The position numbers and the translations under genes are program-made. Of a DNA stretch of 34,205 bases, positions 1 through 31,333 are shown one piece after another. The DNA is from Methanospirillum stamsii (lineage in GTDB: Archaea; Halobacteriota; Methanomicrobia; Methanomicrobiales; Methanospirillaceae), in the NCBI RefSeq assembly GCF_003173335.1, contig NZ_QGMZ01000020.1, forward strand, positions 1 to 34,205, written 5' to 3'. The first letter of the stretch is position 1. Each line of letters opens with the position of its first letter. The notes under the pieces were generated by a model, which worked only from the letters and a program-made list of their open reading frames with translations, had not been told where the DNA came from and searched no databases.

Positions 1-254
1 ATTACTTTATCAATGAGAAGAACTAAGGTTCGTTACCGGCAGGTGGGGGGCCGAGGTATCAATTGACTGGATCAGGCACTCGAAAAGGGTATTTTCATGA
101 AACAAAACAAATTCCGGATGAAGGTAGATAATTGTACCGATTTTATCTATTGTAGCATAATTGGTTATTATGTTCCTGTCCATGGACTGAAAAGTAATTT
201 CCTAACCGGAAATTCAGTCAAAAAGACTCAGGAAAATACATGGCCGGAGACATT
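1..254 (+). repeat. Leader repeat, copy 1 (upstream of metallopeptidase pseudogene)
   Basis: From about position 6 this stretch matches about 2619-2867 without visible gaps at a constant offset of 2613 bp. The closest part is 85-150. It sits directly before the first copy of the surface-protein gene as its counterpart sits before the second, so the duplication unit includes the leader and promoter region. A GGAG at 246-249 serves the ATG at 255. No other gene is supported here. Confidence 0.8.
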
Positions 255-2406
255 ATGAAGAATATAACGTTAGGTTTGGTATTTTGCCTTTTTTTCATTC
301 CATTCTTCTCCGGTGCAGTCGTTTCAGCAGATATCATTGGGGATACCATGGGGATGAGTAGTCTGGATTACCATTTTTATGAGGATATTCGGAGTGCGGA
401 TTTAATCGTTCAGGGAATCCTGTTTGATCAAAAATCTATTATAAATAACTCTTCCCCACTACCAATTCAGACAGAAGGAAAAATATATATCAAAAAGATA
501 TTGAAACAAAGTAATACTTCCAATATCACAGAAGGAATGACGATCGAAGAATATGTATTTGGGGGAACTGTCGATAATAAAACAACTTGTGCTGGAAATA
601 TTTGTCCCATACCTGTGCCTGATGAAACATTTGAAGGGATATATTTCCTAGGAAATTGGGATCCATGGGGAAAAGGGCGATATTATAAATTCAAATCAAG
701 TTCGCGCTCTATTGATGAAATTATACCTGCAATCGCGAATGCCGAAAAGGGGTTACCGATAAAATTATTGGATATGTCAATTGCTGCGCAGGATGAGAGA
801 GAACGGCAAAAAAAAGGAATTGTATCAACAACTGCTGTTCCTGAAATCACCAATATTACTCCAAGTATTGGATCAGGAGGAACAAATACCAAGTTAACAA
901 TAAATGGTACAGGTTTTGGAGAAAAACAATCCCCATATTCGAATGCAGATGTAATTTTCTTTTCTGGGCATGATGATAATTATCTTGAATATTATGCTTC
1001 CGGAAGGCAGGAACCTAATTATAATCCAAATGAAATTATTAATTGGACAGATACCAGGATTGAGGTGAACGTACCATCAGGTTTATTATTAATAGAGAAA
1101 GAATATGTCCCCTTTCCAACTAGTAGCGGTTATATTTATGTAAGAACAGATGAAGAAGAGTCCAGTGAAAAATACCCTTTCTCCGTTCCCTTTTCATTTG
1201 GGCGAAGAAAATGGAACTCGAATACTATCTCTTATGTTGTGAATGCTGATAATAATTCAGATTTTCTCAACGCTATTAATGCAGCAGCAGATTCATGGAA
1301 TGCCATTGCTCCCACCAATTTTTTTTTAACTTTTCCGGAAACTCTTCATTGACCTCATATGGTGAAGATGGAATTAATTTAATATATTTTTTCCCATTTG
1401 AAGAAGGGGATGTTTTAGGAACCACATATATACATGATGATCAAATTGACCATCATATCATTGAGGTAGACACAGTGATCAATTCAAGTCTAGATTGGAG
1501 CGCTACCTCAACTAATCCTCCTATAAATAATTTACAGGCGTTAATGCTCCATGAATTCGGTCACTGGTTAAACCTCCGGGACCTCTATGGGGATTTGGAT
1601 ACTCCGTATAAAAGTGACATTTCACCGGTACAAAAAGTCATGTTTTATGAAAAAAGAACATCTCTTGGAAACTGGAACCTCGTCACTCTTTCTGATCCCG
1701 ACAAGGCCGGATTATCCTGGATATATGATCACCCTGCTCCGGTAATAAATGCCATTTACCCGGCAACCGGAGAGAATTCTGCTTCAATTTCGGTAAACAT
1801 CACCGGATCAAACTACATGAGCATGACAGACTCTGACCTTTCGGTCACCCTTTCAAAATCAGGCCAGTCAAGTATCAATGCAAACTCCGTTCTTCTCATC
1901 TCCTCATCCCGGGTTTCCTGTACCCTGCCGATAACCGGTGCAGAACCAGGCCAGTGGGATGTCACTCTTCAACATCATGACGGGAAGACGGTAACTCTCA
2001 CAAACAGATTTACGATACTTAATCAGCCAGTCGTTACCGGTATCACTCCGAATTCCGGGGAGAACACCGGACCGGTGAACATAACAACCCTATCAGGCAG
2101 TAACTTCTCATCAGGTGCAACCGTAGCCCTCACGAAAACCGGACAAACAACGATTAATGCAACAAATGTATCCGTTATCTCATCATCACTCCTCCATCAG
2201 AGGTAACCGGAATTACCCCGGCTAGTGGACTAAACAACGGAACCGTGAGCATCACAAGCCTATCCGGAACCCTGTTTGAAAAAGGTGCAACGGTCAGACT
2301 GAAAATCCCGAAAACAATCCTCTTTTCCCTTTCCTACCCCACCGGATTCCGGAACCTGTTTTTGATTTATAAATTTATCAATGTTAGAACCGGAGAAGAA
2401 AGATGA
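255..2406 (+). pseudogene. Secreted metallopeptidase/TIG-repeat protein, degenerate copy 1
   Basis: This is a broken paralogue of the gene at 2868-8548. ATG 255 is preferred over ATG 240 because GGAG lies 5 bases upstream and translation begins with a clean signal peptide (MKNITLGLVFCLFFIPFFSG). An N-terminal domain of about 190 residues and an IPT/TIG domain (about 840-1080) follow. The first frame ends at 1352, just after a T9 run (1319-1327). The next frame carries the metallopeptidase motif HEFGHWLNLRD (from 1550), a Met-turn-like KVMFY (about 1637) and one and a half TIG repeats, and stops at 2206. A third frame holds a TIG fragment to TGA 2404-2406. Relative to copy 2, a deletion near 2190 joins two repeats and everything beyond the last TIG fragment is missing. 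The T9 tract could be a sequencing error, but the truncation is independent of it. Confidence 0.85.
1319..1327 (+). other. T9 homopolymer at the frameshift of copy 1
   Basis: The metallopeptidase frame is restored if this tract has 10 or 7 T instead of 9. Alignment with copy 2 places the break exactly here: NAIAPTN upstream in one frame, NFSGNSS downstream in the other. Confidence 0.8.
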
Positions 2407-2618
2407 TAATTTGTCCGGATATACTATATCCAGGCAAAAAAGAAAACAAACACCTTGAGTATGTCCGGATAACGAATACAATAAATACAGCAAAATTTAC
2501 TTCTGATTGATTAAAGGTTAAAGAAATTTGATGATATTAATGCCTGGGTTATCTTATTCATAAATCATATGAAATATACATGTTTCGATTTATCTTCCAT
2601 TTTTGGGTTGTTTATTGA
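2407..2618. other. Intergenic, AT-rich, no gene seen
   Basis: This lies between the truncated end of copy 1 and the leader of copy 2. It shows no convincing reading frame, hairpin or RNA gene, and no match to the region downstream of copy 2. It may include junction sequence left by the truncation. Confidence 0.4.
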
Positions 2619-2867
2619 TTTATCAATGAGAAGATACAAGTATGATTACCGGCAGGTGGGGAGCTGGGATATTATTTGACTGGACCAGGCACACGAAAAG
2701 GGTATTTTCATGAAACAAAACAAATTCCGGATGAAGGTAAATAATTGTACCGATTTTATCTCTCGTAACATTGTTGGTTATTATGTCTCTCTCCATGGAC
2801 TGAAAAATAATTTCCTGCCCGGAAGTTCTGTCAGAAAGACCCGGGAAAATACATGTCCGGAGGCATT
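2619..2867 (+). repeat. Leader repeat, copy 2 (upstream of large surface protein)
   Basis: This is the counterpart of about 6-254 at an offset of 2613 bp. GGAGG (about 2859-2863) lies 4-5 bases before ATG 2868 and is a better ribosome binding site than anything before ATG 2853, so it fixes the start. Within 2710-2871 the two copies differ at 19 positions spread evenly over all three phases of the small open frame, so the leader does not look protein-coding. Confidence 0.8.
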
Positions 2868-3417
2868 ATGAAGAATATAACGTTAGGTTTACTATTTTTC
2901 CTTATTATCATTCTGTTTATCCCCTACATAGAAGCTTCGCAAATTTCTTTTGGAGATAAGATGGGGATGAGTGATTTAGATTACCAATTTTATGAGGATA
3001 TTCGAAGGGCCGATTTAATCGTTCAGGGAACCTTGTATGATGGAAAATCGCTTATCATTAATGGATCTACTATTCCTGTACAGACTGAAGGTAAGATATA
3101 TATTAAGGAGATTCTGAAACAGAATAACAATTCCAATATTACAGAGGGAATGATAATTGACGAATATCAATTTGGGGGAACCATTAATAATGAAACAACC
3201 TGTTATAATGAAATTTGTCCAAGACCAAAACCCGATGATTCATTTGAAGGTATCTATTTCCTGAATAATTGGGATTTATCTGGAAAAGGAAGATATTATA
3301 AGTTCAAAAATAGCATACGTTCTATCGATGAACTTAAAACAGCAATCGATAAAGCTGAAAAGGGGTTACCGATAGAATTAATGGATATGTCATATGCAGC
3401 ACAATATGAGCGAGAGC

Positions 3418-3427
3418 AAAAAAAAAA
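3418..3427 (+). other. A10 homopolymer at the frameshift of copy 2
   Basis: Copy 1 has A8 at the equivalent place (808-815) and stays in frame. Here A10 leads to TAA at 3435-3437, while 11 or 8 A would join the N-terminal frame to the remaining frame. Downstream the correct frame is open without a stop from the tract through 3677 and resembles copy 1 residue by residue. Confidence 0.85.
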
Positions 3428-4337
3428 GGAATTTTAACAACAACATCAGTTCCTGAAATCACAATTATTACCCCAAATGAAGGTTCAGCAGGAACAAAGA
3501 CACAATTAACCATATTAGGGACGAATTTTGGAAATAAAAGTTCAAATTATTCTACAGCAGACATTGCTTTTTATTCTGGATATAATAAGGAGTATCCGGA
3601 TTATTTTGCTTCCGGAAGACAGAACACAGATTATAATAAAAATGAGATAATTAACTGGACAGACACCCGGATTGAGGTGAATGTACCATTCGGTTATTTA
3701 AAAGAAAATTGGGAGGATAAACCTTTTCCAGTTAGTAGTGGATATATCTATGTAAGAACAGATGAAAACCAAATAAGTGAGAAATATCCTTTTACTGTCC
3801 CTTTTTCATTTGCACGAGAAAAATGGAACTCAAATAATATCTCTTATTTTGTGAATGCTAATATTAACACTGATTTTCTCAACGCGATAAATGCGGCAGC
3901 AGATTCATGGAATGCCGTTGTTCCTTCAAAGTTTCATCTACATTATAATGGAGTTAGTACAAAAACAGAAAAAGAAAATGATGGAGTCAGTCTTATTTAT
4001 TTTGGTCCTTTAACAGATGGCCAATTTGCCTCATCAGTAACATATCAGGGTACTGATCAACAAATCATAGAAGCTGACATAATAATAAACTCAACTCAGA
4101 ATTGGAGCGCCACCACTGCAAATGAAACCACAGCAAACTTACAGTCTGTAATGCTCCATGAATTCGGACATTGGTTACATCTCCGGGATCTCTGTGGAAA
4201 TCTAAATAGTCCTTATCCAAATGATATTCATTCAATAAACAAAGTTATGTATTATTCAAGAGATCCTACTCTTGAAAACTGGAACCTCATCACCCTTTCA
4301 GATCCCGACAAGGCCGGACTATCCTGGATATATGATC

Positions 4338-5755
4338 ATCCTGCTCCGGTAATAGACGCCATTTACCCGGCAACCGGAGAGAATTCTGCTTCAATTTCGG
4401 TAAACATCACCGGATCAAATTACATGAGCATGACAGACTCGGACCTTACGGTCACCCTTTCAAAATCAGGCCAGTCAAGTATCAATGCAAACTCCGTTCT
4501 TCTCATCTCCTCATCCCGGGTCTCCTGTACTCTGCCGATTACCGGTGCAGAACCCGGCCAGTGGAATATTACTCTTCAAAATCATGACGGGAAGACGGTA
4601 ACTCTCACAAACGGATTTACGATACTTAATCAGCCAGTCGTTACCGGTATCACTCCGAATTCTGGGGAGAACACCGGACCGGTGAACATAACAACCCTAT
4701 CAGGTAGTAACTTCTCATCAGGTGCAACCGTATCCCTCACGAAAACCGGACAAACAACGATTAATGCAACAAATGTATCCGTTATCTCATCATCACTCAT
4801 CACCTGCACGCTACCTATCACCGGAGCAGAACCCGGACCCTGGAATGTGACGGTTACTAACACGGACGGTCAGAATGGAACACTCATAAACGGATTTACC
4901 ATCACCGCTCCTCCACCAGAGGTAACCGGAATAATCCCGAGCTCCGGGGAAAACACCGGCCCAGTACCCATTACAAACCTCTCCGGCAGTAACTTCCTGC
5001 CAAATTCAATCGTAGTCCTCACGAAAACCGGACTAACACCAATTAGTGCAACAAATGTATCCGTTATCTCATCATCACTCATCACCTGCACGTTACCTAT
5101 CACCGGAGCAGAACCCGGAGCATGGAATATAACCGTAACAAATACAGATGGACAGAACGGAACGCTCATAAACGGATTTACCATCACCGCTCCTCCACCG
5201 GAGGTAACCGGAATAATCCCGAGTTCCGGGGAAAACACCGGCCCAGTACCCATTACAAACCTCTCCGGGAGATATTTCACATCAGGTGCAACGGTAGCTC
5301 TCACGAAACCTGGACAAACAACAATAAACGCAATCGATGTATCGGTTGTATACCCCTCACTCATCACCTGCACCCTGCCGATCACCGGTGCAGAACCCGG
5401 ATACTGGAATATAACCGTGACAAACCAGGATGGGCAGAACGGAACTCTTACAGATGGATTTTTTATTAATACGCCCAGTCTTCTCACCGTTACCGGAATT
5501 ACCCCGGCTAGTGGACTAAACACCGGAACGGTGAGCATCACAAGCCTCTCCGGAACCCTGTTTGAAAATGGTGCAGCGGTCAGATTGACAAGACCCGGAC
5601 AATCCGATATTATTGCAACCTCTGTCCAGGTCCTATCTTCCTCTCAGATAACCTGCCAGCTTCCACTCTCCGGAAAATCGGCAGGCCAGTGGAATGTCAT
5701 GGTAACTAACCCGGATGGAGGCTCCGGTACACTCACAAACGGATTTACCATCACC
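4338..5755 (+). repeat. Five tandem IPT/TIG-coding repeats, period about 282-285 bp
   Basis: The motif VTGI.P.SGENTG recurs at about 4640, 4922 and 5204 (282 bp apart), with a related unit starting at 5489 (285 bp later) and a more divergent first unit at about 4340. Each encodes about 94 residues ending in NGFTI-type strands. Long runs are near identical between units, as expected for unequal crossing-over or gene conversion. Confidence 0.85.
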
Positions 5756-8552
5756 GCTCCAAATCCAGGCAACACACCACTCACCATCAATCCGTCATTG
5801 ATGAATACTTTTGATGGTCAGTACCTCTCTACCCAAGGATACGGATGGTGTGACTTTGGAGGAAAGGATAATTCATACTTTAAGATAACAAAAGGCGGAA
5901 CCGTGGATAATCCCAAAGAATTCCATCTTCTCAAAAGTTTCACAACAAAGGCACAATTCGGTATTCTCATCCAGGCATCAAATGTCACTATAAACGGAAT
6001 TGATCTTTCAACCTCACCAAATGCTGACCAGCGACCGGTAAACACCATCACCAATACCTATGCTCCGCTCATTAAGGCAGAAACCGGGGCAGCAGGGATC
6101 AAGGTAACGTCCGGGTATAGTAACGTCAAACTGGTAAATGTGAATGTTCAGGCAGAAAATGTACCGGCCCTTCATATAGTCGATTCAAATGTGGAGATCA
6201 TCGGAACCAATAACCCGAACCCCTGGCTGAAAACCTACACCGGCTGTGGAATAAATGATAACTGGGGGACACAGCTTACCGGTAAACTAAAATCAGGATA
6301 TGGCCTTGGAATACTTCAACAAGCCCAATCCAGAAGTCCGGTTCTTACCATTACCGGATCAAATGGAAAAGGAGTAAACGTAACCGGACCGTTCAGTGGA
6401 ATTGAAATGAGTGGCAGCACTGCTTCACTTACCCTGAATGGAAACAGGATTCATATAGATGGTTCCGGGACAGAAAGCGGGACTGGATCAAACAGAAATA
6501 GTGGCATTACCGCATGGAGTGGCAGTCATATTGTGGGATCCATGACCGAATCATCGATAACCGGTCAAGAATACGGAGTGTATGGACAGGGAGGAGCAAC
6601 ATGTAGCCTGACATGTCCGGGATGCACCATTGATCCGGTCGTAATAACCAGTATGATTCGCTCATCAGATAGTGAACAGACCCGGCCAATCGGCTCATCA
6701 ATAACCGGGGGAATTCATGGAATCTACCTTACCGGTACCACTTCCACCTCGGGGACAGGAGAAGTAATAATTGATAACATAACGGTCCAGGGAAAAACAG
6801 GATATGGAATTAAATTAGACCAGGCCAGCGGTTATAATGTAACAATAACAAGTCCTGCAGGAATTCTGGGAGGACAGGGAAAAATCGGAACTACAGAAAG
6901 CTCAAGTAACCTGATTAATTCAGGCGGGATTACCATCACAACCGGAACACAGGGACCATATCCGGTCATGATATCTCTTGATGGCATATCAGGACCTGAT
7001 CCATTCAATCTCCGGATAATCAACGAATCCGGAGATATTACCTATGACATTACCAGATGGGACACTATGCCCGAAGGTGTAACTTATAATCCGGATACCC
7101 GGGTTCTATCATTCGAATCTCCCAGATTGGAAATGTACACCGCTGAAAAGTACGAATCCGGACAAACCAGAATCAGTGTCACCGGAATAAAGCCCGAAAG
7201 TGGCAGGGCCGGAACTACTGTCAGGATTTACAACCTCTCCGGGATATTTGATACCGGGGCAGCCAATAGCCGGGTAACCCTGTCTGGATCGAAAGAAAAC
7301 CTCTACCTCACTGACCTTCTTGTTGAATCTGAAAACCATATAACAGGAGACCTCACCATCCCGTCACAAACCCGGACCGGCCCCTGGCAGGTAATTGTAC
7401 AGCAGGATGACAGCACCAGCACTGAAAATGTCACATTCACCGTTTTGCCTGCTGAATATTTTATCAATGCCACTGTTACAACGGGAGGAACAATAGATCC
7501 ATCCGGAACAGTCCGGACACTGTCCGGATCAAACCAGACATTTGTAATGACGCCCGACTCGCAATATCAAATCTACGACATAATCTCGGACAATTTCAGC
7601 CTTGGACCAGTACAAAATTACACATTCGTAAACATAACGGCAAACCATACAATCAATGCTCAATTCAAACCCATTGGCCTCACACCGGTAATATCAGGAG
7701 TCTCTCCTGAATCTGCCACTCAGGGAAGTACCATCACCCTGCATATATCAGGTCAGAATTTCTTTGGAGGTGAACAGGTAGATCTCACGAAAAATGGCTC
7801 CGTATACCTGACGAAAGTTGCAATCATCAGGAATGATAAGTTGATAGTTCCAAATCTGGATTTGAAAACCGTTACAACCGGAGTGTACAATCTCTCTGTC
7901 ACGAACCTGACAACCGGTCTTTCCGGGCGTAAAAACGATGCTTTGACAATAATCCCATCTCATCAAAAATTTTACACAATCACCACGATATCGGATAAAT
8001 ACGGGAGAATCATTCCTTCAGGTCCGGTGAAAGCCAGGGCAGGGACCAATAAAGTATTTTTATTCCTGGTGTTGCCGGGTGCTGAAATAGAAAGTATTAC
8101 CGTGGATGGGACACCGGTGACTCTTGAGAATGGAAACACGTATACATTTTACCATATCATGTCAAATCACGTTTTAAAACTGAATACAAAATATATCCTG
8201 GAGAAAGTTTCTGCTCACTTTACCACAGACAAAGAATCCGGCTCTGTCCCTTTTACTATTCATTTCACCGATACATCAACAGGATCACCCACAAAATGGC
8301 TTTGGTTTTTTGGTGATGGAAAAATTTCAACTCTACAAAATCCCATCCATACCTATGTTCGTCCGGGAAAATACACCGTAAGACTCATTGTGCAAAATCA
8401 ATACTCCACTGATATGATTATTAAGAAGAATATTATCCATTCTACCGGAAATCGGAACCCATCTACAATTCAAAAAACAGATGAAGATCTTTCTTTTGAA
8501 TTATATCCGATATTAAATCGAATAAATTTCACTAATCCCTGGAAATAATTAC

Positions 8553-8572
8553 TTTTTTGAGACAATTTTTTT
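8553..8572 (+). terminator. T-rich terminator after the large surface protein gene
   Basis: T6 (8553-8558) and T7 (8566-8572) lie within 25 bp of the stop codon. Archaeal termination depends mainly on such T runs. Confidence 0.5.
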
Positions 8573-9265
8573 CTCGCAAATTTTATTATCCAATTCAAAC
8601 CTCCTTAACAAATGGAATATCATATGTTTTTATTCAAGTAACAATGAACACTTGCGTAATCACCGATACCATAGCTTTTTAGCACTGGCATACCTCTGAA
8701 TTAGGATATTTGAATTATATGGGTGATGATTCGGACTGTAAAGAATTCATATTCAATTTAGGTGTAAATGAGTTTTTCCGGACTATTCTAATGAGATAAT
8801 CTGTTCTTGTTATCACCTTAAAAAACTGGTCCTCTATTTTTTGATAGATCACTTAAAAAAATTCATTCCGGCGCCAATTGAGCATGCATGCATCCAATAT
8901 TTAAAAAAATTTAAGAAATTTATTAACTAATCACAGTCCGCATTTACGTGGGTTGGTTGTTTCTCACCAATGCACTTAAAACAGGGGATCCGGATTACTA
9001 CCTTATCTTGTATCAACTCAGTATTGAGTAATAATGGTGACCCCATGAGAAAATGAATAATATGGTTTAATCATCGAAAGAAGGTCAATTAGGTGAGATT
9101 TATCAAAAGGGTAATTCTATGGTAAAAATTGTCGATATTTTCATGAATTAAGTGAAAATTGGACGTATTCAGAAACCTATTCGTATGGTTTTATAGGTCT
9201 GGCTAAGTGATATGGTAATATGTCCGGATTTCAATGAATTATTACTATCAGGAAGCTCACCTGTA
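8573..9265. other. Intergenic region of about 690 bp, no convincing gene
   Basis: This is AT-rich sequence with only very short open frames (for example 26 codons from about 8720) that lack ribosome binding sites or recognisable products. No tRNA, hairpin array or inverted repeat pair was recognised. It separates the surface-protein region from the redox cluster. Confidence 0.4.
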
Positions 9266-9670
9266 TCAAAGAACGCAGTCCTTACAGTCCTGCTTTCCAC
9301 AGGGAATATTATCAATCTTCCATTTCAGTGCCCAGGTTTTTATTGTCCGAATAATCTCAATCAGGTCAAGACCACTTTCTGTCAGGGTATATTCACATTT
9401 TACCGGAAATGAAGAGGTATCAATCGTTTTGGAGACAATTTTTTCGTCTTCCAATTCCTTAAGCCGCTCAGAAAGGATCTTCGGGGTGATACCTTCAAGA
9501 CTATCTTTTAATTCAGAGAACCTGCGGGTATAATTTTCTCCCTTGTATAACTCAAGGATTATCAGGAGAGTCCATTTCTTCGCCAGGTATTGAACTGTCA
9601 GGTTGACGGTACAGTTAGCTTGCACAGTATACTTTCTGATACTCACAACTATTAATAACTTGATATACAT
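9266..9670 (-). CDS. HxlR-family winged-helix regulator with cysteine-rich C-terminus
   Basis: The protein is about 134 residues. The HxlR core is clear: a cysteine-containing entry (NCTVNLTVQYLAKKWT), LLIILELYKG, RRFSELKDSLEGITPKILSERLKELEDE and a wing near CEYTLTESG. HxlR proteins are small DNA-binding regulators often controlled by thiol or electrophile chemistry at a cysteine before the winged helix. The C-terminus, CGKQDCKDCVL, adds three closely spaced cysteines. Start ATG 9670 is chosen because a TATA-like stretch on this strand (about 9690-9697) lies about 25 bases upstream, which fits a leaderless mRNA. ATG 9712 and GTG 9646 are alternatives. It is divergent from hcp and shares the control region, so regulation of hcp and of itself is the likely role (inference). 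Confidence 0.85.
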   Translation of the reverse strand: MYIKLLIVVSIRKYTVQANCTVNLTVQYLAKKWTLLIILELYKGENYTRRFSELKDSLEGITPKILSERLKELEDEKIVSKTIDTSSFPVKCEYTLTESGLDLIEIIRTIKTWALKWKIDNIPCGKQDCKDCVL

Positions 9671-28071: not shown

Positions 28072-28147
28072 AGTTTTATTTTCGGTTCGTTTTTTGGACA
28101 CCATTATCTATAAAAAGTTTCAGGAGAATGAACTTGTGGGGGAAGAA

Positions 28148-31100
28148 ATGACAGCACATGATTATGCAGACTTATTATCACAAGCAGACTGCGACACCGT
28201 TCGGAAACTGATTCAGGTTTTGCCGGTACCAACCCTGGTTATCCGGAACAATACGATTGAATATGGAAACCAGGCATTTAAAACACTGTTTCACCTTGAT
28301 GGGGATGATTCCGGAAGAGATCCTGTAACTCTTTTCTCTCCGGAACAGGAAGATAATACCTCTGCCGCAACTACCTTGTCATCTCTTATGAGGCAGGTAT
28401 CGCCGGACAATACCGTTTCACGGGATCTCATTGCTATAAAATCTGACAAGGCTCTTTTTCCGGTACGAATAACCCTTGTTCCGGTGACCTGGAACAAAGA
28501 AGATTCGTTCCTGATGACAATTCTGGATATCTCTAAAGAAGTAGCGAATACCAAAAAAATTGAGGCATTCACCGATGAAGTTGCATGGTATCGGTCAATC
28601 CTTGATGCAGTCCAGTTCCCGATACACGTAACCGATCTTGATATGAACTGGACATTCATGAACAAGGCCTTTGAAGCAGTTCTCTTAAAGAACAAGGTTA
28701 TAAAAGACCGTGAATCAGCATTAGGCCTTCCCTGTCACACGGCCAATGCAACAATATGCCGGACAGAAGGTTGTGGTATCCATCAGCTCCGGACAAAGGG
28801 GATCACGGAGAGTTATTTCGAGTGGCAGGGAATGAACGGCAAACAGGTCACAAAAGAGGTTGTCAATGCAAAAGGTGAGACAATCGGGTATGTTGAGACG
28901 GTGCAGGACCTTACCGATATTCTCTCAGTCCAGGAATATACCAAACGGGAAGTTGACCGGATTGATGAGAACCTGAAGAGACTGGCAGAAGGTAACCTGG
29001 AATTCAATCTGAAGATCAATGAACCGGACCAGTACACAAAAGCTGAGTATGAGGCATTTAAAAAGATGAATGAACGGCTTTTGATGGTACATGACAGTTA
29101 TGGGGCAGTAATCGCCGATATTAAAACAGTGACCGAAGCTCTGGTAAAAGGAGATCTTAATGTCCGTGCAGATGTCTTAAAACACCAGGGAGATAATCGA
29201 AAGGTCATAGAAGGGCTGAATGCCACTGTGGATGCCATGGCAGACAAGGTGGCCTGGTATCGTTCCATCCTTGATGCGGTCCAATTCCCGATTCATGTAA
29301 CCGACCTTGATATGAACTGGACATTCATGAACAAGGCCTTTGAAGCAGTTCTCTTAAAGAACAAGGTAATTAAAGATCGTGAATCCGCAATGGGTCTTCC
29401 CTGCCACACGGCTAATGCAACAATATGCCGGACAGAAGGCTGTGGTATCCACCAGCTCCGGACAAAAGGAGTTACGGAGAGTTATTTTGAGTGGCAGGGA
29501 ATGAACGGCAAACAGGTCACAAAAGAGGTGGTCAATGCAAAAGGAGAGACAATCGGGTATGTTGAGACGGTGCAGGACCTTACCGACCAGTTGAACCAGA
29601 TAGCATATTACCAGTCAATTCTGGATGCTGTTCCGTTTCCCATTCATGTCATGGACATGGATATGAGATGGACATTCCTGAACAAAGCATTTGAAAAACT
29701 ACTCATTGATAACAGGGTAATCAAAGACCGCGAATCAGCGTATGGTCTTCCCTGTCATACTGCTAATGCCAATATCTGTAAAACAAACAAGTGTGGTATC
29801 ACCCAGCTCAAAACCACCGGAGAGAATGAGACATACTTTGACTGGATGGGTTCATCCTGTAAGCAGACGACCGCACTTGTCCTAGACGGCCAGGGAAACA
29901 GTGTCGGGTATGTTGAAACGGTGCAGGACCTCACCGAACAACTCTCTCTTATTGCCTTTTTAAAAGCCGAGGTTGACCGGTTATCTGCCAACATAGAAAA
30001 ACTCAGCGAGGGTGATTTTACCCTGAATATGGAGATTACCCGGGCGGATGTTCATGCAAAGGAAGCGGAAGAGATGTTTAAGGTGATTAATGGAAATGTG
30101 GATAAATTACTCATAAACCTTGAAAATTTAACCGCTGATGCGATTCACCTCTCTGAAAAGGCAGTTCTCGGGGAATTATCAACCCGGATAGATCTTGAGA
30201 GGTACCATGGCGAATTCCAAAAAGTAATGAAAGGAATTAATGAGACCCTTGATAGTGTCATGGAACCGGCCAATGAGGCTATGCGGCTTTGTACCAGTTA
30301 TGCCAATTACAATTTTAAGGACCGGTTTAATATGGCTGTTCATGCCGAAGGTGACTGGATTGCATTAAAGAACGCTCTGAACAGCATTGGTGTTCAGGTA
30401 TCAGCCGCTGTCAATCTCATTATTCAGCAGGTAAATGACCTGTCGATCAATGTAGAACAGTCCAATGCAACGGTCGAAGAGGTATCTGCCGGAGCACAGC
30501 AGATTGCAATAAACGCGAATAAAGTCAGTCAGAATGCAGAGAACGGGGGTGAAGGAATCCGGCAGGTCCTCCGTGCCATGGAAGATCTGAACGAGACGGT
30601 GGCGGCTGTTTCCCGAAAGACTGAAGCTGTATCCGGGTCTTCGAATCAGGCTAATACGTTTGCCCGTGAAGGTATTGACCTTGCAGAAAAGTCTGAACAT
30701 GCAATGGATGAGATTACCCAGTCAACAGAAGAAGTGAACCTGATTGTTACCGACATTAATCATGAGATGGATGAGATAGGAAAGATTGTCCACCTTATCT
30801 CTGATATCGCAAACCAGACAAATCTGCTTGCCCTGAATGCGGCTATTGAAGCAGCACGAGCCGGAGAGGCAGGACGAGGGTTTGCAGTTGTTGCAGCAGA
30901 GGTAAAATCACTTGCGCAGGATTCGAGGAGGTCTGCCGAGAATATTACCGGAATGATAGGAAAGCTTCAGAATAAGACAAAAAAAGCAACCGAAGCGATG
31001 AAACTCTCTTCTACTGCAGTAAAAGAAGGAGGAGATTCCTTACAGCAGACGGTCCGGGCATTTACTGAAATTGCAGATACCATCGAGGGGATTAACAACA

Positions 31101-31333
31101 ATATTGTCGAGGTAGCTTCAGCATCTGAGGAGCAGGCTGCTTCAGTTGAAGAGGTTACGGCAAGTATCCAGGAGGTTTCGAATATGATTGAGAGTACCGC
31201 TCATGAAGCCGGAGATTCTGCAGCAGCAACCGAGGAAGCTACTGCCTCTCTGGAGGAGATAAGTAAACTTATGGCATCAGTTGTAACAATTGTTGATAGT
31301 GTGTCCCATGAAATGAAGAAATTTACCGTTTAA
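28148..31333 (+). CDS. Cytoplasmic chemoreceptor with PAS array (soluble MCP)
   Basis: This is a 1061-residue protein with no membrane segment, so a cytoplasmic receptor. An N-terminal PAS-like domain (about 15-135) is followed by PAS A (28586-28918), a HAMP-like linker ([25 protein letters not shown]), PAS B (29255-29587), PAS C (about 29605-29940) and more HAMP-like units ([20 protein letters not shown]). The MCP signalling domain has the canonical tip [25 protein letters not shown] and C all carry a PCH...C....C pattern (C-x7-C-x4-C), which may bind metal or a redox cofactor (inference). ATG 28148 is chosen because GGGGGAAG lies 5 bases upstream; TTG 28094 is in frame but less likely. No CheA or CheW is adjacent downstream. 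Confidence 0.92.
28586..28918 (+). repeat. PAS-coding direct repeat, copy A
   Basis: This is nearly identical to 29255-29587 at a constant offset of 669 bp, with scattered, mostly silent differences and no indels. It encodes a PAS domain with the C-x7-C-x4-C pattern. Confidence 0.9.
29255..29587 (+). repeat. PAS-coding direct repeat, copy B
   Basis: This is the partner of 28586-28918. A third, more diverged PAS copy with the same cysteine spacing follows at about 29605-29940. Confidence 0.9.

Follow-up and report, generated by a model that had tools for sequence, protein, structure and literature searches.

A probable species-specific tandem array of large secreted matrixin-type metalloprotease genes in Methanospirillum stamsii, likely shaped by birth-and-death and recombination between units

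Silent-cassette antigenic variation is exemplified by Neisseria pilE/pilS, and homopolymer phase-variable surface genes occur in bacteria. Among the metzincins, aspartate is known as a zinc ligand in some members. In methanogens of the Methanomicrobiales and Methanococcales, segmental gene conversion has been described between the paralogues mtrA-1 and mtrA-2 (PMC4632066), and most archaeal MMPs are inferred to have been acquired by relatively recent transfer (PMC12587646). A literature search of partial coverage returned, among the titles listed, no described phase or cassette variation in Methanospirillum. Here we compare these systems with a locus of M. stamsii.

The window, the whole stretch of 34,205 nucleotides that was analysed, is the entire contig C13 of a 3.74-Mb assembly with 89 contigs. 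Two units occupy its first 8.5 kb, gamma (1-2406) and delta (2613-8548). The original prediction of a tandem duplication that includes the leader, at an offset of 2613 bp, is borne out: positions 1-2194 align with 2614-4801 at 79% identity over 2.2 kb (BLAST E reported as 0.0), and the alignment takes in about 250 bp 5' of the start codon. The predicted duplication is thus real, but a count of two copies was too low, as the proposed genome search for further partial copies uncovered an alpha remnant and beta on contig C18 (L043), which brings the total to at least four. The features of the array and its surroundings are as follows, in window coordinates unless L043 is named.

1 to 254, + strand: gamma leader, cut at the contig end; 86% identity to the delta leader and 87% to that of beta, JC distance 0.15
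97 to 258, + strand: 53-codon frame within the gamma leader, reaching into the gene start (ATGA); free of stops in all three leaders, dN/dS 0.7-1.06
255 to 2206, + strand: gamma gene (ORFs 240-1352 and 1295-2206), with signal peptide, N-terminal domain, IPT, matrixin-like domain and TIG
1319 to 1327, + strand: T9 tract at the gamma frameshift
1691 to 2193, + strand: gamma 3' TIG module, 96% identity to delta and beta; identity breakpoint at about 1661-1694
2194 to 2406, + strand: truncation junction and unit tail of gamma, common to beta; about 2347-2406 also in alpha
2407 to 2612, + strand: spacer between gamma and delta, almost the same in sequence as the one that separates alpha and beta on C18
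2613 to 2867, + strand: delta leader, 95.5% identity to the beta leader
2868 to 3437, + strand: delta frame 1, signal peptide and N-terminal domain; ATG at 2868, or 2853
3410 to 8548, + strand: delta frame 2, IPT, matrixin-like domain, TIG repeats, middle region and C-terminal PKD
3418 to 3427, + strand: A10 tract joining the two delta frames; of about 23 A10+ tracts found in the genome, no other links two long same-strand frames
3821 to 4183, + strand: Pfam matrixin (M10) match in delta, E 1.5e-4, just under the curated cut-off, which beta passes
4157 to 4189, + strand: zinc-binding motif HEFGHWLHLRD, of which H, E, G, H and W are invariant in 17 relatives
4301 to 5760, + strand: delta TIG-repeat region, with a 282-bp period array at 4664-5445
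8231 to 8407, + strand: delta C-terminal PKD domain (Pfam)
9223: left edge of synteny with five congeners
L043, 2785 to 3155: alpha remnant, without its 5' part
L043, 3369 to 7494: beta, split by a 1.76-kb insertion sequence

Because window base 1 is a contig end, the gamma leader is cut by the assembly and not by biology. Contig C18 ends inside a unit tail and C13 starts inside a unit leader, so a single array is likely; judged from the layout of the units, the simplest and likely order would be alpha-beta-gamma-delta, in which beta and gamma flank a gap in the assembly. The sequence of tail, spacer and leader shows 94% identity between C13 and C18, and it has no other occurrence in the genome beyond the units on these two contigs. 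The left flank of C18 was sought in the congener G010, so as to place the C18-C13 junction by synteny, and gave generic matches only. Window positions 1-9200, leaders included, returned no Rfam match. The 53-codon open frame of the leader is unconvincing as a conserved peptide, its dN/dS of about 0.7-1.1 indicating that it is probably not a constrained protein.

On the right of the array, homology between the window and five congeners (G010, G001, G003, G004 and G008) begins only at 9223-9282, just before an hcp gene; hence, none of the five has the array at the syntenic site. M. hungatei carries a single intact homologue, at another site. Relatives were found in two of 12 Methanospirillum genomes, in 11 of the 61 in the family sample and in scattered bacteria and archaea, and none were found in the viral contigs searched. 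One genome from another genus of the family (G076) has six protease-domain matches on several contigs, and family expansion may have occurred there too. Farther along the window, positions 28580-28917 and 29249-29586 form a 338-bp direct repeat of 92% identity inside a 1079-aa ORF (28094-31333), a recent duplication within what is possibly a gene of chemoreceptor type.

All units code for a secreted metalloprotease of the matrixin type. An N-terminal domain of about 180 aa is followed by IPT, matrixin, TIG repeats, a middle region and PKD (Pfam); the middle region of delta has no Pfam match, and the gamma gene matches TIG and, weakly, M10. These may be surface proteins, as had been proposed; a signal-peptide-like N-terminus, read by eye, is present, but no C-terminal anchor was recognised. 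A matrixin profile comparison with a PDB MMP gave an E of 2.8e-12, and Foldseek matched the AF2 model (pLDDT 79) to MMPs and karilysin at E about 1e-7, with TM 0.6-0.7 depending on the target. By profile and predicted fold, the assignment of the catalytic domain to the matrixins holds, and protease activity is predicted. Like other matrixins (MEROPS M10, Pfam PF00413; karilysin, vertebrate MMPs), the units combine this fold with HExxH and a downstream Met (KVM) in the Met-turn position, a residue conserved in 17 relatives. Unlike them, they carry the 180-aa domain and an IPT domain ahead of the protease and a long TIG/PKD C-terminus, and the motif HExGHWxxLxD replaces HExxHxxGxxH, with no Gly and, at the third ligand position, with Asp instead of the His of classical MMPs. 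In the congener G004 (L051 = G004:C6:90000-104000), positions 5919-8800 encode three tandem small secreted proteins that correspond to the N-terminal domain alone.

The copies are homologous, as the alignment proposed at the outset confirmed, but not uniformly so: when gamma and delta are compared, the leaders are 86% identical, the protease cassettes (255-1690) 72% and the TIG modules 96%. Synonymous divergence follows the same mosaic. Among units, dS is 0.67-1.31 in the N-terminal domain (95% CI from 0.47) and 0.21-1.21 in the protease domain. The TIG module gives 0.06-0.10, with 0.18 as the upper 95% CI limit, and its confidence intervals do not overlap with those of the N-terminal domain. 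The leaders are separated by JC distances of 0.05-0.15, and synonymous divergence drops about tenfold at both cassette edges. Segments of low dS thus adjoin segments of high dS, the pattern by which concerted evolution of tandem paralogues is recognised. At gamma 1661, a max-chi analysis finds a break in identity (permutation p=2e-4). Beta groups with delta in the cassette, yet its truncation junction is that of gamma, and alpha is a small mosaic, delta-like for about 40 bases and gamma-like from there on. Triplet max-descent permutation tests, which took in all informative sites, reached significance for some orders, but uneven site density dominates their signal; as these tests mix site density with recombination, the evidence relied on here is the dS contrast, together with the breakpoint and the junction that beta and gamma have in common.

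The neighbouring hcp gene provides a scale for these values: its dS is 0.39 against G010, the nearest relative, and 1.4-2.0 against other congeners. Judged by the 0.39, the flanks appear to have become alike later than the split from G010, whereas the cassettes diverged for the most part before it; only the protease domain of beta and delta (dS 0.21) departs from this. Cassette dN/dS of 0.14-0.39 suggests that the cassettes were working proteins under purifying selection for most of their divergence.

We therefore regard the locus as probably a tandem array confined to this species, in which a gene for a large, secreted metalloprotease of the matrixin type occurs at least four times and which has evolved by birth-and-death together with recombination between units. 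The repeated leader and TIG-module DNA would let units pair, and unequal crossing-over or gene conversion, which are indistinguishable here, would make and remove units and homogenise both flanks. The AT-rich protease cassette between the flanks would retain old differences, and most units have decayed since then. The array resembles mtrA-1/mtrA-2 (PMC4632066) in that neighbouring methanogen paralogues have one segment homogenised and another differing; however, the mtrA copies are intact and lie in a core operon, whereas the array copies are mostly broken and their homogenised parts flank the catalytic cassette. Given that documented precedent within the Methanomicrobiales, gene conversion by itself does not set a methanogen apart.

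Base composition changes at the same edge of the cassette. In delta, GC steps from 0.335 to 0.495 at 4279 (support 4253-4306, + strand), at the end of the protease domain and adjoining the identity breakpoint, and the M. hungatei homologue steps from 0.334 to 0.489 at its nucleotide 1501, likewise at the end of the protease domain. GC3 is 0.17-0.33 in the cassette, 0.43-0.52 in TIG and 0.37-0.58 in neighbouring genes. These values suggest that an AT-rich protease cassette has been joined as a module to a host-like TIG tail, and the coincidence of the identity and GC steps supports recombination in the flanks around that cassette, which is perhaps foreign in origin. A possible though less likely alternative takes the differing cassettes not for old paralogues kept in place but for AT-rich protease modules that were each imported horizontally and recombined into a TIG gene native to the genome. 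The GC step at the cassette edge in both delta and the M. hungatei homologue would fit such imports, as would cassette GC3 below that of TIG and neighbouring genes, cassette divergence that mostly exceeds sister-species divergence, the patchy distribution of the family and the prevalence of relatively recent gain inferred for archaeal MMPs (PMC12587646). However, no donor sequence above about 41% identity was found, the leader 5' of the cassette is likewise rather AT-rich, and the domain order shared by several methanogens fits vertical descent with loss.

The lesions of the copies bear on the birth-and-death part of the preferred explanation. The assembly holds no intact copy, and delta is the sole near-complete one. 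Alpha has a 5' deletion. In beta, the lesions are a frameshift at an A-tract, the loss of 2 bp within the TIG module and an insertion sequence of 1.76 kb (L043 4446-6207), which encodes a DDE transposase of 530 aa (Pfam) and has CCTCACCT ends and a TTAAAA target duplication. Gamma, predicted to have decayed, is indeed both truncated, at the junction it has in common with beta, and frameshifted at its T9 tract. These lesions (insertion sequence, 2-bp deletion, frameshift, 5' deletion) are unrelated and therefore fit decay. Delta, previously read as one ORF of about 1890 residues, consists instead of two frames, 2868-3437 and 3410-8548, which meet at the A10 tract in the single break in about 1890 codons. 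Against birth-and-death, this lone lesion lies in a homopolymer and is compatible with a functional switch or with faulty assembly as well.

The first of these, that delta is phase-variable, with slippage at A10 (3418-3427) switching the full-length protein or RNA polymerase slippage giving some of it, we consider unlikely. The sole break does fall exactly in the A10 tract, no other of the roughly 23 A10+ tracts joins two long same-strand frames, and an A-tract is present at the matching place in three copies (A8, in frame, in gamma; A10 in delta and A8 in beta, both out of frame). The arrangement is like that of bacterial homopolymer phase-variable surface genes, in which a mononucleotide tract in the 5' portion decides the frame of a gene for a secreted protein. 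Nevertheless, loss-of-function mutations and assembly errors commonly arise in homopolymers, and the other copies are broken by other means. Also improbable is the second, that the frameshift is a sequencing or assembly error and the delta gene intact: a lone homopolymer-length discrepancy in an otherwise open gene of 1.9k codons would be consistent with it, but no other A10+ tract found in the genome breaks a long frame, and hence there is no sign of systematic homopolymer error.

Gene-conversion-based surface variation, in which truncated units would donate cassettes to a delta expression site via the leader and TIG flanks, is very doubtful. Recombination between units is retained from the original prediction, but not the donor and expression-site system. 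As in silent-cassette variation, conserved flanks enclose a variable cassette and several partial copies adjoin one long copy, and the cassettes were formerly under purifying selection. However, a run test detected no conversion tract within the cassette (255-1690; gamma-delta p=0.95, gamma-beta p=0.41), and exchange was detected in the flanks only; the beta-delta run in this interval (p=0.013) may reflect only the general closeness of beta and delta. Where silent donors would accompany an intact expressed copy, delta itself is frameshifted, the putative donors bear an insertion sequence, frameshifts and a 5' deletion, and the readable cassettes number only three. The array thus departs from silent-cassette variation in having a variable part without mosaic tracts and no intact expressed copy, in a comparison that covered one genome per species. 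Least probable of all is a cassette-exchange system that would combine both kinds of variation, with AT-rich cassettes swapping between the leader and TIG flanks and the poly-A tract toggling the full-length copy.

If the A10 tract or the cassettes were to vary between cells, this would be a rare instance of programmed variation of a methanogen extracellular protein. Apart from that, the locus is a clear case of tandem copies of a large secreted-protein gene recombining in a methanogen, in which the boundaries of identity and of composition coincide at the edge of the catalytic module.
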